In this document: piece by piece, positions 2,747 to 17,993 of the stretch
Position numbering within the stretch: position 1 is the stretch's first letter
How the letters are laid out: every line of letters starts with the position of its first letter
Source of the DNA: a virus
Virus record (IMG/VR): IMGVR_UViG_3300007351_000020
Coordinates: 1 to 46,236 of that record
Length of the DNA stretch: 46,236 nt
Reading direction: 5' to 3' (one strand)
Position numbers and translations under genes: made by a program
The notes under the pieces: generated by a model
Seen by the model: only the letters and a program-made list of their open reading frames with translations
The model's database searches: none
What the model was told of the DNA's origin: nothing

Positions 2747-3100
2747 ATGTGGGACTGGTTAAAAGGGCTTGTTGGCGGCGTGATTGATTTCTTCACGCCC
2801 TGGTTTCAGGAATTCGTCACCACGATTTTCACCAAAGGCGAGCAGGTGCTCTACGAAAAGATCATGCCTGGGGTGCTCGGGATTCTGGCGGACATCAACA
2901 ACGATCCGAATATTATTCTGGATGACGATCGACGCCATGCCGCATTTACGCGAATCGAGAGCCTATTGACAACCGATTACAAGGTGGCTGCAATCCGGCT
3001 CGGGGTGACGGTCACAACGAGCTTTATCAACCGCCTGATCGAGAACGCGCTGGAACACGCCAAAAAGACGGGCCAGCTTCCGCCGAATGCAGGCGAATAA
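2747..3100 (+). CDS. Small protein closing the lysis cassette
   Basis: This is a 117-residue protein. AGAGGAGGT inside the previous gene serves as its ribosome site. The N-terminus is amphipathic and aromatic (MWDWLKGLVGGVIDFF), and a second mildly hydrophobic helix lies near residues 85-100. There is no clear transmembrane span. Being last in the cassette and directly before a hairpin, it probably belongs to the lysis or tail-end transcript. I do not recognise the family. Confidence 0.6.
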   Translation: MWDWLKGLVGGVIDFFTPWFQEFVTTIFTKGEQVLYEKIMPGVLGILADINNDPNIILDDDRRHAAFTRIESLLTTDYKVAAIRLGVTVTTSFINRLIENALEHAKKTGQLPPNAGE

Positions 3101-3109
3101 GCGCCCATA

Positions 3110-3148
3110 GAGCCCCCGGGTTTTCCGTCTCCTTTCGCTCGGGGGCTC
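3110..3148 (+). terminator. Hairpin terminator after lysis cassette
   Basis: A 9-bp G+C-rich stem, GAGCCCCCG (3110-3118) with CGGGGGCTC (3140-3148), encloses a 21-nt pyrimidine-rich loop. No strong T-run follows, so it may be a weak or Rho-assisted terminator. It separates the late transcript from the consensus promoter at 3215. Confidence 0.55.
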
Positions 3149-3214
3149 CCCTATTTGTAAATACTGTTTAGTAAAAATAATTCCCACTTTTTTCATTTTT
3201 CTTGCTTTTTCCTA

Positions 3215-3243
3215 TTGACAGATATACTAGCTCGTGATATAAT
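3215..3243 (+). promoter_or_regulatory. Perfect sigma70 promoter, P1
   Basis: TTGACA at 3215-3220 and TATAAT at 3238-3243 are separated by exactly 17 bp, both hexamers at full consensus. An A/T-rich stretch lies upstream. Transcription should start near 3250 and reads into the IbrAB-type operon. A closely related promoter lies at 6395-6423. Confidence 0.9.
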
Positions 3244-3294
3244 ATACTCATGAGAACAGAGAACATAAAACTAGGTGAAATGGAGGAAAAGGAA

Positions 3295-3744
3295 ATGGAA
3301 AGCAAGGATGCGATCAAGGGTTTAAGCCTGAATGAGATTTTAGCAACCACTAAAGAATTGAGCAATTATTTCCATCAAGCCCATATGAAGGTTGCAGCCC
3401 CGGCCAGCGGGTGGGCAAAGAATATGGAGCAATATTCCTTGCACATGAAGTTTCAGGTTGGCGGCTGGTTCGCAAAGTCCGCAGAGGAACAGGGCGAATA
3501 TTCCAAAGGTTTGTGGAGTACTATAAACCAAGGTTTTGGCATAATCGAAGTTAATATATGGGCAAAATGGGGCGGCAATTATTACGATGAAACCCCGATC
3601 GAGGGAACCATTGCTGAAATTCTTATCGTTGACCGCAGAACGCAATGGGATGACGGCAGCTACACGCCCCGAAGCTTTGAGGAAGCAAAAGCGCAAATTC
3701 AGCAACTTCTCGATAATCCAAAATCGGCGCCTCTTCTCTCATGA
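3295..3744 (+). CDS. Unknown protein, first gene of IbrAB-type operon
   Basis: This is 149 residues from ATG 3295, which is preceded by GGAGGAAAAGG. An ATG at 3250 would sit on the predicted transcription start and lacks a ribosome site. The protein is soluble and Trp-rich (AKNMEQYSLHMKF, GLWSTINQGFGI), with a probable beta-rich core and a helical C-terminus (SFEEAKAQIQQLLDN). I do not recognise it. It overlaps the next gene in an ATGA, so the two are translationally coupled and probably cooperate. Confidence 0.7.
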   Translation: MESKDAIKGLSLNEILATTKELSNYFHQAHMKVAAPASGWAKNMEQYSLHMKFQVGGWFAKSAEEQGEYSKGLWSTINQGFGIIEVNIWAKWGGNYYDETPIEGTIAEILIVDRRTQWDDGSYTPRSFEEAKAQIQQLLDNPKSAPLLS

Positions 3745-4145
3745 AATATCACCTTAAATTTGAGGCCATTGGGGACAACATCTCTCAAATGATGCGCCTT
3801 TACCGATGGATAACAGACCAGGCTCTTGGTAAAGGCGCTGGCGATGTGGTGGTTGGGCATATTAGCAGCGGATGGGTTGCTGAGATTACAGGCAAGGACA
3901 AAAAATATAAATTTCGCCGTCACTTTTTGCGGGGGTTCAAGGATTATTCCAAAACAAATTCCGCGGGAAGTCGGGGCGTTTTTATTTCATTTTTTCTAGA
4001 TGAAGACAAACTCTATGAGGCTTGTTACCGGGTTACATGGGGAAGCGCGAGACGATATTTCTGCATCATCAAGAATGGGTGTATCATTGAGTTATCTGAA
4101 AAAGAGGCAAGGGAATGGCTAAAACAAAAAGGCCTTTGGGAATAA
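3741..4145 (+). CDS. Unknown protein, second gene of IbrAB-type operon
   Basis: This 134-residue soluble basic protein has mixed alpha/beta character and ends in a helical segment (SEKEAREWLKQKG). No known motif was seen. Its start is fused to the stop of the previous gene (ATGA). Its last 31 bp overlap the PAPS-reductase-like gene. This tight packing places it in the same functional unit. Confidence 0.7.
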   Translation: MKYHLKFEAIGDNISQMMRLYRWITDQALGKGAGDVVVGHISSGWVAEITGKDKKYKFRRHFLRGFKDYSKTNSAGSRGVFISFFLDEDKLYEACYRVTWGSARRYFCIIKNGCIIELSEKEAREWLKQKGLWE

Positions 4146-5317
4146 ATGTGCTTGAGGCCGCGCAACAGCGCGTCGCCTGGGCATTCGACACCTTCCAAAA
4201 ACTCTATGTCTCTTTCAGCGGCGGAAAAGATTCGACCGTTATGCTCCACCTAGTTGCCGATGAGGCGCGCCGGCGCAGCCGCAAATTCGGGCTGCTCTTC
4301 ATCGATCTTGAAGGACAATATCAATACACGATCAAGCACGTACGCGCCATGTACGACACGTACGCCGACATTATCGAGCCGTACTGGGTTTCCCTTCCCA
4401 TCCACCTGCGCAACGGCGTCAGCCAGTTCCAGCCGCATTGGGTCTGCTGGGACCCGGACAAGCGCACCGACTGGATACGCGAGCCGGACCCGCTCTCAAT
4501 CACAGACCATGGCCATTTCCCGTTCTTTCATTATGCGATGGAGTTCGAGGAATTTACGCCCAAATTCGGGCGATGGTACGCCGGCGGGAAAACATGCGGA
4601 TGCTTCGTCGGGATTCGGGCGGATGAATCACTCAATCGATACCGCACAATCAAGCGCCGAAAAAGCATGATGGAAAATAAGCCGTTTACCACATGGTTCG
4701 GCGAGGGCCTCTTTAACGTCTATCCGATCTATGACTGGAGAACGCGCGATATCTGGATCTATCACGCGCGCACCGGCAAACTGTACAACCATCTCTACGA
4801 TATTATGCACAAGGCCGGCCTCAGTATCCACCAAATGCGGATCTGCCAGCCGTACGGCGACGATCAGCGCAAAGGGCTTTGGCTGTTTCACCTGATCGAG
4901 CCGGATACGTGGGCGCGAGTTGTTGCGCGCGTCAACGGCGCCAACCAAGGCGCACTCTACGCGCAGGACAGCGGGAACATCCTGGGTAATATCAAAATTT
5001 CGAAGCCCGAAGGGCACACATGGGAATCATTTGCAAGATTGCTACTTGAAAGCATGCCAGCAAAGACGCGCGAACATTATGAGGATAAAGTCGCTGTCTT
5101 CCTTCATTGGTATTCCGAGCGCGGATATTTTCACGGAATCATCCCGGATGAAGGACCCCTCACAAAAGATGCGCCGAGTTGGAAACGCATCTGCAAGGCG
5201 CTTCTGCGGAATGATTATTGGTGTAAAGGTCTTTCATTTTCTCAGCACAAATCCGAAGCTTACGAAAAATACCGTAAAATCATGAAACGGAGGCGAAGCG
5301 AATGGGGATTGATCTGA
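4115..5317 (+). CDS. ibrA: PAPS-reductase-family protein, IbrA-like (DUF3440)
   Basis: This 400-residue protein has the PP-loop signature SGGKDST at about residues 35-41, which binds the pyrophosphate of adenylated substrates in PAPS reductases and related N-type ATP pyrophosphatases. GIRADES (about 167-173), YPIYDWRTRDIW (about 204-215) and QMRICQPYGDDQ further match the DUF3440/IbrA branch. Its length is typical of that branch. The following gene is IbrB/ParB-like and overlaps it by 16 bp, the same order as the ibrA-ibrB pair first described in Escherichia coli as activators of immunoglobulin-binding protein genes. The actual substrate is unknown. A role in nucleic-acid or cofactor chemistry is possible. 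Confidence 0.85.
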   Translation: MAKTKRPLGINVLEAAQQRVAWAFDTFQKLYVSFSGGKDSTVMLHLVADEARRRSRKFGLLFIDLEGQYQYTIKHVRAMYDTYADIIEPYWVSLPIHLRNGVSQFQPHWVCWDPDKRTDWIREPDPLSITDHGHFPFFHYAMEFEEFTPKFGRWYAGGKTCGCFVGIRADESLNRYRTIKRRKSMMENKPFTTWFGEGLFNVYPIYDWRTRDIWIYHARTGKLYNHLYDIMHKAGLSIHQMRICQPYGDDQRKGLWLFHLIEPDTWARVVARVNGANQGALYAQDSGNILGNIKISKPEGHTWESFARLLLESMPAKTREHYEDKVAVFLHWYSERGYFHGIIPDEGPLTKDAPSWKRICKALLRNDYWCKGLSFSQHKSEAYEKYRKIMKRRRSEWGLI

Positions 5318-14876: not shown

Positions 14877-15734
14877 ATGAAAGAAATAGAACCGACTGAA
14901 ACCGAAAAACTGATCAAGCGGGAATATGAGCTATCGCAGTATCAGGGCGAGTTTGAGGTATTGCCGGCCAGTGAACTTCGCAAAATAGCACGCGGTAGAC
15001 CTCGCCCATCCGTCCTGCTTAAATCCGGCATTCCGGCGATTGACGCCACGATCGAGGGCTTTGAGCCGCCGGAACTGACAATCATAACCGGACCAACAAA
15101 GGGCGGAAAGACATTATTTTGCCAGACCTTGACGGAATCATTTATCCGTCAGGGATTTAATCTGCTGTGGTTTCCGTACGAAAACTGCGGCGAATATGGC
15201 GAACGATTCATGCGAGCTTTCGGCGCGGAAGTTCCTGAGTTTTTCATGCCGAAGAAGCTGAAGCGGAACGCGCTTGAATGGCTTAATGAGCGCATTTGGG
15301 AAACACAGGTTAAATATAACCACGTCCACGCGGTTTTCATCGATCATTTGCACTTTCTCTTTGACATGGCTCGAAGCAAAAGTCCGTCTCTGGAGATCGG
15401 CGCAATCATGCGGCAGCTAATCGGTATCGCGCAGGAGCGCAACGTTGCGATGTTTTTGATTTGTCATATGGTCAAAGTCGCTCCTGATCATGAACCACAG
15501 GCCGGGGACACGAGGGACAGCGGAATGATCGAGTGTGAATGTGACAACTTGCTTGCCGTCTGGCGAAGCAAAAAGCAGGGATCAACGCAATCGAAAATCA
15601 AAGTTATCCTCAACCGCAGGCTCGGAGTGTTCGACTACGTGGTAACAGTCGCAAAACAAGGCCCGTACCTCCGCGAGATCGAACAAAGACAGCAAGAGGC
15701 CCCGCAATCATGGGAGAACAAATGCTATCAGTGA
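14877..15734 (+). CDS. DnaB-like replicative helicase ATPase domain
   Basis: This 285-residue protein has a RecA-fold core of the DnaB C-terminal type: Walker A GPTKGGKT (about residues 73-80), Walker B HAVFIDHLHFLFDM (about 150-163), then AQERNVAMFLICHMVK, and a basic C-terminal strand with KVILNRRLG. The N-terminal DnaB domain is missing, so it resembles the shorter phage helicases or loaders that work with an O-like initiator. ATG 14877 is preferred. ATG 14868, inside the previous gene, is possible. Confidence 0.8.
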   Translation: MKEIEPTETEKLIKREYELSQYQGEFEVLPASELRKIARGRPRPSVLLKSGIPAIDATIEGFEPPELTIITGPTKGGKTLFCQTLTESFIRQGFNLLWFPYENCGEYGERFMRAFGAEVPEFFMPKKLKRNALEWLNERIWETQVKYNHVHAVFIDHLHFLFDMARSKSPSLEIGAIMRQLIGIAQERNVAMFLICHMVKVAPDHEPQAGDTRDSGMIECECDNLLAVWRSKKQGSTQSKIKVILNRRLGVFDYVVTVAKQGPYLREIEQRQQEAPQSWENKCYQ

Positions 15735-16339
15735 CCGACGCTGAAACCCTTGCATGGCAGGAGCAAGAGCGGGATAACGCGGACCTCGAGCGAATGAACC
15801 GCGAAATATTCACGCCGCAGGCCCGGACCGCTATTGCCGAAATGAAAGAAGAGGCGGGCGCATGGGGGCTGGAGCGCCGCCATATATTTCTTGCCGGCAT
15901 CCAGGCCCAGCTCGAAATTCAGATCATGGACCTGGAAGCCGATTACCTTGACGGCATGAAACGGGGGCAGCCGTACCTTGAGCGCCGGATAACCGCAGAC
16001 CTGATTGTCAACAAACAAAAGACGCTGGAGCGCGTCCAGGGCGAAATGAAAAGTCTGATCATCCGGCTCCACGCTCTCCAGCAGGGCAAGGAACTGAAGC
16101 AGGCCGGATTGACTGACGCCGAAATTAAGCGGGCCCGGCAATACCCGATCGAGCGGCTTGTTGAGATCGGGCGCAACGGCCGGGCGCTGTGTGTATGGCA
16201 TGAGGATCATGATCCGTCAATGGACTGTAGGAACAATTTTGCATACTGTCACGCCTGCGGGAAACACGGGGATACGATTGATCTTTACCGGCAGATCCAC
16301 TGCGTGGATTTTCCTACAGCGGTAAGGGCGCTCCAATGA
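15722..16339 (+). CDS. Primase-type zinc-finger protein without catalytic domain
   Basis: This is 205 residues from ATG 15722, just behind GGAGAAC. An upstream ATG at 15710 lacks a ribosome site. About residues 1-150 are helical and charged. The C-terminus is a CHC2 zinc finger like that of DnaG: CVWHEDHDPSMDC, then FAYCHACGKHGDTIDLY, followed by the usual closing helix (PTAVRALQ). No TOPRIM or polymerase domain follows and none is encoded nearby. It may load or guide the host primase. It overlaps the end of the helicase gene. Confidence 0.75.
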   Translation: MLSVTDAETLAWQEQERDNADLERMNREIFTPQARTAIAEMKEEAGAWGLERRHIFLAGIQAQLEIQIMDLEADYLDGMKRGQPYLERRITADLIVNKQKTLERVQGEMKSLIIRLHALQQGKELKQAGLTDAEIKRARQYPIERLVEIGRNGRALCVWHEDHDPSMDCRNNFAYCHACGKHGDTIDLYRQIHCVDFPTAVRALQ

Positions 16340-16373
16340 CCCGCCTAGAGCGCGTGGCGATACAGGAGGAGAG

Positions 16374-17156
16374 ATGCTAGGGCCGTTCACTTACCTTTCC
16401 CTTTTCACTGGCGCTGGCGGTGGAGATTTAGCGTGTCAACACCTACTTGGATGGAGATGCCTCGGATATGTCGAAATTGATGAATACTGCCAAAAAGTCA
16501 TCGCGCAAAGGATCAAAGACGGCTTCCTCAACGAAGCCCCAATCTTCACCGATATCCGCACATTCATCAGTGACGGGTACGCCGCAAGCTATCAAGGAAT
16601 GGTTGATGTCGTCACGGGGGGATTCCCATGTCAAGACATTTCAAGCGCCGGGTCAATGCGTGGTATCAACGGGAAGCGGTCAAGTCTCTGGCGTTCAATG
16701 GCCGAAGTGGTTCGCCAAGCTAGACCCAAATTCGCGCTTGTGGAAAATTCGCCAATGCTCACTATTCGAGGACTTGGAGACGTCCTTAGAGAGTTGGCCG
16801 AAATGCGGCGAAATGCGCGATGGAAAGTGTTTTCCGCTTGCGAATTCGGAGCGCCACACACACGGGAAAGGCTGTTCGCAGTTTCCAACGCCGAATGCGA
16901 TCGACGGAGAGCCGGTAGCAGCCTTATGGGATGGGCATGGGGAAATTTACAAAACGAAAAACGGAACGCTTCGGCGCCGCGCCAAGACGGGAAGCAATTT
17001 CGGCGTGAAGTTGCCCGTTGCAATTGGTGGAACTCCGAACCCGATGTGGGTCGAGTGGCTAATGGGCTGGCCTATGGGGTGGACCGCCTTAGAGCCATTG
17101 GCAACGGACAAGTTCCAATTATGGCTGCAACTGCATGGGAGATATTGAGTCAATGA
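16374..17156 (+). CDS. dcm: DNA cytosine-5 methyltransferase
   Basis: This 260-residue protein starts after AGGAGGAGAG. The C5-methyltransferase motifs appear in order: FTGAGGGD (I), YVEIDEYC (II), GGFPCQDIS with the catalytic Cys (IV), ENSP (VI, normally ENV), TRERLFAVS (VIII) and RLRAIGNGQVP plus AATAWEIL (X). The target-recognition region between VIII and X is short. No matching restriction enzyme is encoded, so it is probably used to hide phage DNA from host nucleases. Almost the whole gene is shared with a second frame at 16447-17148. Confidence 0.9.
   Translation: MLGPFTYLSLFTGAGGGDLACQHLLGWRCLGYVEIDEYCQKVIAQRIKDGFLNEAPIFTDIRTFISDGYAASYQGMVDVVTGGFPCQDISSAGSMRGINGKRSSLWRSMAEVVRQARPKFALVENSPMLTIRGLGDVLRELAEMRRNARWKVFSACEFGAPHTRERLFAVSNAECDRRRAGSSLMGWAWGNLQNEKRNASAPRQDGKQFRREVARCNWWNSEPDVGRVANGLAYGVDRLRAIGNGQVPIMAATAWEILSQ
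16447..17148 (+). CDS. Nested +1-frame protein inside the methyltransferase gene
   Basis: This frame of up to 233 residues lies wholly within the dcm gene, one base out of phase. It is not a random shadow. It reads KEWLMSS and VKTF, then SRLWKIRQCSLFEDL, SWPKCGEMRDGKCFPL, PTPNAIDG and the end NPMWVEWLMGWPMGWTALEPL...KFQLWL. That succession I know from phage proteins often annotated beside or within C5 methyltransferases. The true start is uncertain; ATG 16606, with AAGGA upstream, gives about 180 residues. Its role is unknown, perhaps target recognition or a partner subunit. Confidence 0.65.
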   Translation: MDGDASDMSKLMNTAKKSSRKGSKTASSTKPQSSPISAHSSVTGTPQAIKEWLMSSRGDSHVKTFQAPGQCVVSTGSGQVSGVQWPKWFAKLDPNSRLWKIRQCSLFEDLETSLESWPKCGEMRDGKCFPLANSERHTHGKGCSQFPTPNAIDGEPVAALWDGHGEIYKTKNGTLRRRAKTGSNFGVKLPVAIGGTPNPMWVEWLMGWPMGWTALEPLATDKFQLWLQLHGRY

Positions 17157-17220
17157 ATCGCGGCCTAACCGTCCCTGAGCTTGAGCAGGGCCAACAAACG
17201 CTATGGTGAAAGGAGGAGAT

Positions 17221-17391
17221 ATGGTTACGGTTTACAATCGTGGATACTGTTTCAATTGTGGGGAGCCGACTGATGATGACTACGATGTCGGCAGGGTCAG
17301 GCTGTATTGTTGCACACAGCGCGAATGCCAGAGGGAATTGAGGGACATGGAACAGGAAGAGCGCGAAGAGCGCGACTGTGAGTGGAGATAA
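17221..17391 (+). CDS. Zinc-binding microprotein
   Basis: This is 56 residues from ATG 17221, directly after AAAGGAGGAGAT. YCFNCGEP and YCCTQREC supply two cysteine pairs for zinc, followed by an acidic/basic helix (ELRDMEQEEREERD). It opens the block of small accessory genes after the methyltransferase. Confidence 0.65.
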   Translation: MVTVYNRGYCFNCGEPTDDDYDVGRVRLYCCTQRECQRELRDMEQEEREERDCEWR

Positions 17392-17397
17392 ATACAA

Positions 17398-17514
17398 ATG
17401 ATCCTCGCAGTCGCTCTTATCTTCGCAACACTGCTCACGTGGTCACTCTGCTACGCGGCAGGCGAGGCGGACAGGGGAAAAGAAAGGTGGGAAAATGAAA
17501 ACACTAACACCTGA
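17398..17514 (+). CDS. Possible 38-residue membrane peptide
   Basis: ATG 17398 opens a frame with one hydrophobic segment (ILAVALIFATLLTWSLCYAA) and a polar tail. The ribosome site GGAGATAAATACA is acceptable. The stop lies 20 bp inside the next gene. Single-span microproteins are common in phage early regions; expression is not proven. Confidence 0.45.
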   Translation: MILAVALIFATLLTWSLCYAAGEADRGKERWENENTNT

Positions 17515-17749
17515 ACAGGTCAAGGCATTCTGCGAGAGGATGGGGTTTAGGTACTATTGCGGAACGGATGCTTGGAGCAATACCCATGCTTCTGCTGGGA
17601 GATATAGAAATGCCCGCACTATTGAAATCGCCTTTTTTCGCTATGGCCGCACGGAGCGCGAGGCCGCCAACAATCTCTACCGCACGATGACCCGCGAGAT
17701 CAAGCGGCTGGCCGAAAGGTGGGAGGAGGAAAACCATGAACGTCCGTGA
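17495..17749 (+). CDS. Unknown small protein
   Basis: This 84-residue protein follows GAAAGGTGGGAAA. It is helical and basic, with a C-terminal coiled segment (AANNLYRTMTREIKRLAERW). No known motif was seen. It ends 14 bp inside the next gene, whose ribosome site (GGGAGGAGGAAAACC) lies within it. Confidence 0.6.
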   Translation: MKTLTPEQVKAFCERMGFRYYCGTDAWSNTHASAGRYRNARTIEIAFFRYGRTEREAANNLYRTMTREIKRLAERWEEENHERP

Positions 17750-17993
17750 AATCGTAAAGGCGTATCTCGAAGCGAACGGGTTTGACGGGCTGTACAATCC
17801 CAACATTGTCTGTGGCTGCATGAGGGATGATTTAATTCCATGTGACTTTGAGAATGGGAATTGCGAGGCGGGATACAAGCAAACGTGCGAAAATTGCAAC
17901 CCTGAAGACTGTGAGGAAGCGCAATATCCGCACGAGGACAAAACCTATTTCTGCATCGGCCCGAAGAGGCAGGAGGAAAACCATGTCGTGTAA
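17736..17993 (+). CDS. Cys-rich protein
   Basis: This 85-residue protein has nine cysteines from about residue 26 (CGCMRDDLIPC, CEAGYKQTCENCNPEDC, FCIG). It probably binds zinc or a metal cluster. The N-terminal helix REIVKAYLEANGFDGLY is a pattern seen in small phage proteins of this kind. It is coupled to its neighbours by short overlaps. Confidence 0.6.
   Translation: MNVREIVKAYLEANGFDGLYNPNIVCGCMRDDLIPCDFENGNCEAGYKQTCENCNPEDCEEAQYPHEDKTYFCIGPKRQEENHVV

Follow-up and report, generated by a model that had tools for sequence, protein, structure and literature searches.

Two C5-cytosine DNA methyltransferases (C5-MTases) with divided chains are the closest described systems. According to the account in PMC3404938, M.EcoHK31I is a two-polypeptide enzyme whose larger chain contains motifs I to VIII, motif X and the predicted target-recognition domain (TRD), and whose smaller chain contains motif IX; its specificity is YGGCCR (Lee, Kam and Shaw 1995, via PMC3404938). 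In the same account, M.AquI, specific for CYCGRG, is split into an alpha subunit with motifs I to VIII and a beta subunit with motifs IX and X (PMC3404938).

The locus studied here lies in a window of 46,236 nucleotides, i.e. the whole stretch analysed (IMG/VR virus record IMGVR_UViG_3300007351_000020). The original prediction for this DNA placed two proteins in overlapping frames of one methyltransferase gene. The 0 frame at 16374-17156 and the open +1 frame within it were both confirmed at these coordinates, and all the +1 motifs quoted at that time are present. Very probably, the two subunits of a single heterodimeric C5-cytosine DNA methyltransferase of a tailed phage are both specified by this segment, with alpha read in the 0 frame and beta in the +1 frame. 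The features of the segment are as follows.

16364..16369, + strand: AGGAGG, Shine-Dalgarno-like sequence of the alpha gene, 4 nt 5' of ATG 16374 (sequence)
16374..17156, + strand: predicted alpha subunit, C5-cytosine methyltransferase catalytic subunit, 260 aa (Pfam, phrog_363, M.HhaI alignment)
16398..16424, + strand: alpha motif I SLFTGAGGG, SAM binding (sequence and M.HhaI alignment)
16594..16598, + strand: AAGGA, Shine-Dalgarno-like sequence of the beta gene, within the alpha codons YQGMVDV, 7 nt 5' of ATG 16606
16606..17148, + strand: predicted beta subunit, +1 frame, 180 aa from ATG 16606 (tblastn, start-codon column, dNN/dNS)
16620..16634, + strand: alpha motif IV GFPCQ, catalytic Cys86 (sequence and M.HhaI alignment)
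16732..16839, + strand: beta module SRLWKIRQCSLFEDL...SWPKCGEMRDGKCFPL, overprinting the part of the alpha core that leads up to and surrounds motif VI, with a putative target-recognition-type role
16743..16751, + strand: alpha motif VI ENS (sequence and M.HhaI alignment)
16851..16883, + strand: alpha motif VIII APHTRERLFAV, where the similarity to M.HhaI stops (M.HhaI alignment)
17038..17085, + strand: beta motif IX NPMWVEWLMGWPMGWT, sharing bases with the beginning of alpha motif X (canonical motif IX matrix)
17079..17117, + strand: alpha motif X VDRLRAIGNGQVP, containing GNGQVP (sequence; phrog_363 match reaching residue 257)

The 0-frame product exhibits the motifs of a C5-cytosine DNA methyltransferase, namely I, IV (PCQ), VI (EN), VIII and X. 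It is matched by phrog_363 (E=2e-58) and by Pfam DNA_methylase (PF00145; E=4.7e-30), the latter over positions 1-163 of the 324 of the profile only. In the same way M.HhaI, the best solved relative, aligns with alpha at residues 12-169 only, corresponding to motifs I to VIII. No motif IX was found in the window 0 frame, and the interval of about 65 aa between motifs VIII and X contains no TRD recognisable by Pfam or by the M.HhaI alignment. Alpha does not qualify as a complete monomer, since motif IX and the TRD are absent from the same chain; the 0 frame had been credited with a full set of C5 motifs, which is wrong, as it holds I to VIII and X.

The +1 frame is open from 16447 to 17148, giving 233 aa when counted from the TTG at 16447. 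The beta gene most likely starts at ATG 16606 rather than at 16447, and is then 543 bp long, encodes 180 aa and lies wholly within the alpha gene. In most relatives the similarity of the +1 product starts near 0-frame motif IV, and the start codon is commonly found 20 or 23 nt 5' of the PCQ codons, within the alpha codons WRGIVDV; this start region of the relatives, GAGGAATTGTTGATG, stands at the place of the AAGGA and ATG of the window. A start codon is present at the beta-start columns in 180 of 208 relatives, compared to 106 expected from synonymous shuffles. Considering that the Shine-Dalgarno-like enrichment at the same place is weak (141 of these relatives versus 130 in shuffles), the start codon was weighted over the Shine-Dalgarno sequence. 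Downstream, the residues W46, T48, P65, G68 and G73 of beta are near-invariant in 127 relatives, and the conserved module follows the pattern SxxWKTxQCSLxEDL...WPxxGxMRxG, the same DNA encoding the alpha core around motif VI. Variable stretches containing WPTP come after this module.

Motif IX is located in beta, not in alpha. The C-terminal stretch of beta, L-N-P-x-W-V-E-W-L-M-G-W-P-x-G-W, aligns without gaps with the canonical motif IX, L-T-P-R-E-x-x-R-L-Q-G-F-P-D-x-W, and with a matrix built from 18 canonical motifs, 119 of 127 relatives have an in-register match, and 94% score higher than the 99th percentile of shuffles. Taken alone, the motif IX of the window beta reaches about the 1% level only (19 of 2000 shuffles). 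A link toward the canonical motif is provided by locus L296, with LTPEMVEQMLGFPPGWTD in its +1 frame, and three loci (L446, L527, L478) present a fully canonical motif IX in the +1 product, e.g. VRRLTPAECERLQGFPDGWT; for L446, Pfam DNA_methylase recovered this +1 motif IX at profile positions 258-295, with E=2e-4, just below the cut-off. At three further loci (L085, L086, L147) motif X is also found in the +1 product, continuing from IX to X, and the 0 frame ends after motif VIII or lacks X. Since motif X is relocated there, the two frames appear to divide one enzyme, with a dividing line that can shift.

The overlapping layout was then followed across other genomes. A tblastn search with the +1 protein gave 55 phage records, down to E=8e-24, and where the frame was worked out it is always +1 relative to that of the methyltransferase. 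Translated examples from phages of Stenotrophomonas, Mycobacterium, Acinetobacter, Pseudomonas and Porphyromonas are likewise open in +1 and share this layout with one E. coli prophage. The profile comparison covered 269 loci, which include bacterial genome contigs from many phyla, and at 259 of them both proteins are present in the +1 register. None of the beta-profile matches at the 269 loci was found without an overlapping alpha-profile match on the same strand. The exceptions in register were considered as counter-examples and rejected, being single indels (L015, L069, L070, L105, L220), relocations of motif X (L085, L086, L147) or a duplicated beta (L181).

Most of the 208 homologues used for the shuffle comparisons had been retrieved via the +1 protein, and a sample blind to that protein was therefore needed. 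Viral contigs were chosen only by a degenerate motif IV DNA pattern (GFPCQPFS or GFPCQDxS), which yielded 204 usable genes among the matches listed, of GFPCQ type and from one viral collection. Among these matches listed, 164 of the 204 genes have no stop in +1 over 130 codons or more past motif IV, compared to 8.4 expected from synonymous shuffles, and a long open +2 frame is present in 3 of 204; the median open length after motif IV is 198.5 codons in +1 and 15 codons in +2. Most sampled viral GFPCQ-type genes among the matches listed thus have the overlapping-frame layout. In a second blind sample, of GPPCQGFS-type enzymes, a long +1 frame was observed in 1 of 95. Sorting the 204 genes among the matches listed by motif IX gave 137 with a long +1 frame containing MGxP and no 0-frame motif IX, 15 with a 0-frame motif IX and a short +1 frame, 5 with a 0-frame motif IX and a long +1 frame without MGxP, which belong to a second nested class, and 1 (L424) scored with both a 0-frame motif IX and a long MGxP +1 frame; the two features are all but mutually exclusive.

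An open +1 frame could arise merely as a by-product of the codon conservation and composition of alpha, with no second protein. An overlapping frame indeed inherits some similarity because alpha is conserved, and shuffled +1 frames still score a median of 88 bits against the beta profile. Nevertheless, the observed median over the 208 homologues is 209 bits, compared to a shuffle maximum of 165, and 1 stop was seen in their +1 frames versus about 4.1 expected per locus. When synonymous shuffling of the window preserves the 0-frame protein and its codon usage, only 9 of 1000 shuffles leave the nested +1 stretch free of stops. The blind sample, with its excess of open +1 frames over both the shuffles and the +2 frame, and the loss of the open +1 frame in canonical enzymes point in the same direction. 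Because the variable part aligns poorly, which partly confounds simple comparisons of codon positions and fourfold sites, we relied on isolated differences within 55 independent close pairs. Counted per site, a change altering both proteins is 11-fold rarer than one that alters alpha and is silent in beta, with a dNN/dNS of 0.089 (bootstrap 0.075-0.112) in the overlap; in the portion of these genes 5' of the nested start, the ratio is 0.262 (0.188-0.357). Purifying selection has conserved both frames, and the overlap is genuine and long-standing; the by-product explanation, already refuted on conservation, retains practically no probability. The statement that both frames look conserved, made in the original prediction together with the suggestion to compare substitution rates in each frame, is in agreement with the register at 259 of 269 loci, the stops, the shuffles and the dNN/dNS values. 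It had also named, as an outcome that would speak against it, homologues that keep the 0 frame with stops scattered through +1, together with a lack of proteins matching the nested one. This outcome did not occur: scattered stops were found only in canonical-type methyltransferases, and none were seen in methyltransferases lacking a 0-frame motif IX, like that of the window.

Two other explanations accept a translated +1 frame. In one of them, a programmed ribosomal frameshift would join the 0 frame (motifs I to VIII) to the +1 frame (motif IX) into a single-chain enzyme. The motif order would be restored at such a junction in the three loci whose motif X is also in +1, and one indel joins the 0-frame N-terminus to the +1 frame in L015 and L220. 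At most loci, however, the return of motif X to the 0 frame would call for two shifts. Conservation of the +1 frame moreover reaches back over motifs IV to VIII, a region that a shift after VIII would leave untranslated in +1. The enrichment of a start codon at the expected place (180 versus 106) and the report of M.EcoHK31I as two polypeptides in the account of PMC3404938 also argue against a frameshift, which we consider very unlikely. It is equally improbable that the +1 protein is an independent factor, such as an inhibitor, an anti-restriction protein or a regulator, merely sharing its DNA with the methyltransferase. The lack of a database function for beta, which has no Pfam match, would suit such a factor, but beta carries exactly the motif that alpha lacks, was never seen apart from an alpha-profile gene at the 269 loci and in some relatives also contains motif X. 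The nested protein had been proposed to be a recognition subunit, an inhibitor or an anti-restriction factor; we favour the recognition subunit because beta has motif IX, and probably the TRD, that the 0 frame lacks, and nothing supports a factor acting apart from the enzyme. The suggestion of a formerly separate gene compressed onto dcm found no support either, as nothing points to a free-standing ancestor and the relatives are nested across many bacterial phyla and their phages.

Searching both translations against databases, as had been proposed, identified alpha by Pfam and phrog_363 and beta by phrogs and tblastn, and no Pfam or NCBIfam match was obtained for beta. Four families (phrog_1008, phrog_26627, phrog_27243, phrog_35493) all match the +1 protein, and therefore some annotators have deposited pieces of the beta family as proteins. 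Only phrog_1008 bears a function label (DNA methyltransferase), and none of the four entries mentions a link to an overlapping frame. Modelled by itself with AlphaFold2, from 26 sequences and subsequently from 127, beta reached low confidence in either case (pLDDT 62, pTM 0.26). We treat as uninformative the Foldseek comparison of the better model with the PDB, which gave no match. The beta profile gave a best E of 0.13 against PDB sequences, with an apparently unrelated protein, and hhalign of the whole beta with 9 canonical MTases gave no match, the motif IX similarity being short. Because the models are of low confidence and the profile comparison gave no match, we assign beta from its motif IX, from the near mutual exclusion and from the move of motif X. 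Considering that the conserved module precedes motif IX, that the variable WPTP stretches lie behind the module and that alpha has no such domain, we infer that beta carries most of the TRD.

In the heterodimer that we propose, alpha would supply SAM binding, the catalytic cysteine and motif X, and beta would supply motif IX and presumably most of the TRD. Both would be translated from one mRNA by separate initiations, beta probably at its own ATG 16606 behind the internal Shine-Dalgarno-like site. The two chains may then associate, and the predicted heterodimer would methylate the phage DNA at a specific site. The alpha/beta gene adjoins helicase and primase genes; the contig, that of a tailed phage, also carries terminase, portal and capsid genes. 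No cognate endonuclease was found beside the methyltransferase, the neighbours being replication genes or short ORFs without a match. Since the gene adjoins phage replication genes and no recognisable endonuclease, the methylation would most likely shield the phage DNA from host restriction. The Rfam search of 15500-17800 gave no match.

Elsewhere in the window, a 757-aa ORF at 7963-10236 matches DNA helicase families and, in its C-terminal part, a DNA methyltransferase family, and a phosphoadenosine phosphosulfate reductase-like protein is encoded at 4115-5314 beside a ParB-like gene. The phage contig belongs to a 24-contig assembly of 0.7 Mb that is 92% complete, and one beta relative (L113) lies in a Patescibacteria MAG; a small-genome bacterium is a possible host on these grounds.

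The second nested +1 class comprises L431, L435, L440, L446, L459, L522, L527, L533, L541 and L542-L581, with the pattern S[LW]KT...SSGxW...SGM...ESSLSDVLE...KYSLSAKACEGILRRAxRRGKxLP. Its +1 protein (ESSLSDVLE...KYSLSAKACEGILRRA) covers the same region as beta, differs from it and is conserved. Several viral C5-MTases of this class keep motif IX in the 0 frame, and L446, L527 and L478 have the canonical IX in +1 instead. The S[WL]KT...W...G pattern present in both +1 proteins hints at, without proving, a common recognition module.

Some loci show rearranged frames. L181 (Actinomycetota MAG) presents, at 3134-4106, a second downstream copy of beta beside an intact nested alpha/beta pair; the would-be alpha frame of this copy is a C-terminal remnant with motif X only, and the second beta seems to have been kept without a full overlapping alpha. 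A single indel displaces both frames together in L105 (Mycobacterium phage Llama, 1213-1972) and yields two annotated methylase genes, gp74 and gp75, a pattern repeated in related phage records. Single indels near a G run after motif IV separate the frame of the alpha N-terminus from the rest in L015, L069, L070 and L220, joining it to beta in L015 and L220; they may reflect sequencing error, a natural break or slippage.

Annotation of these genes is frequently incomplete. RefSeq gives a single CDS per gene in the E. coli prophage with two such genes, L300 (PT62; 53-1039 and 3011-3748), where two different C5-MTase genes have only their 0 frames annotated and in each of them a nested +1 frame stays open and terminates in a stretch resembling motif IX. 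In L109 (Pseudomonas phage Shamal, 1211-1897), it is the nested frame that bears the CDS annotation, and the methyltransferase frame has none. The wide occurrence of the arrangement is not described in the literature searched, which cites M.EcoHK31I as a single case; most subscription papers lie outside that search, and an earlier description is possible. The frequency of the arrangement in viruses, the relocation of motif X and the frequent absence from annotation are what we regard as new. We lean towards the view that the viral GFPCQ-type C5-MTases, and not just one curious enzyme, are predominantly of the overprinted two-subunit kind, in which the +1 frame over the catalytic core supplies motif IX and a recognition module, that motifs IX and X moved between frames in different lineages, that a second, possibly related nested +1 protein occurs in otherwise complete-looking enzymes, and that a large phage family without Pfam entry is hidden under annotated genes.

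Long same-strand overlaps with clear homologues of both proteins across many bacterial phyla and phages are rare, and the overlap in the window is a testable natural case of two interdependent enzyme parts on the same bases. Many annotated phage and prophage DNA cytosine methyltransferases may be inactive or non-specific when expressed as alpha alone, which could mislead methylome predictions and cloning work. The presence of motif X in alpha or in beta offers a natural series for the evolution of split enzymes.

Compared with M.EcoHK31I, the window alpha likewise has motifs I to VIII and X without IX, and the window beta likewise carries IX. A small-subunit gene nested in the other frame is seen in the window; for M.EcoHK31I, Lee et al. 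are said to have found in 1995 that the beta gene is nested in the alpha gene in another frame. M.EcoHK31I is part of a restriction-modification system and has a known specificity, whereas the window gene stands among the replication genes of a phage, where no endonuclease is recognisable. The comparison with M.EcoHK31I is by description only, and in the account of PMC3404938 its alpha has a predicted TRD, in contrast to the window alpha, in which none is recognisable. A division of motifs like that of M.AquI is seen in the relatives L085, L086 and L147. The window gene itself keeps X in alpha, unlike M.AquI, whose subunits are not described as overlapping in this way in the account of PMC3404938. 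With the monomeric C5-MTases of the M.HhaI and M.HaeIII type, the window alpha is homologous over motifs I to VIII; these enzymes differ from the window gene by holding motif IX and the TRD in one chain and by the many stops in their +1 frame. From its motif arrangement, the window gene fits the M.EcoHK31I kind, and its relatives span both the M.EcoHK31I and the M.AquI divisions.
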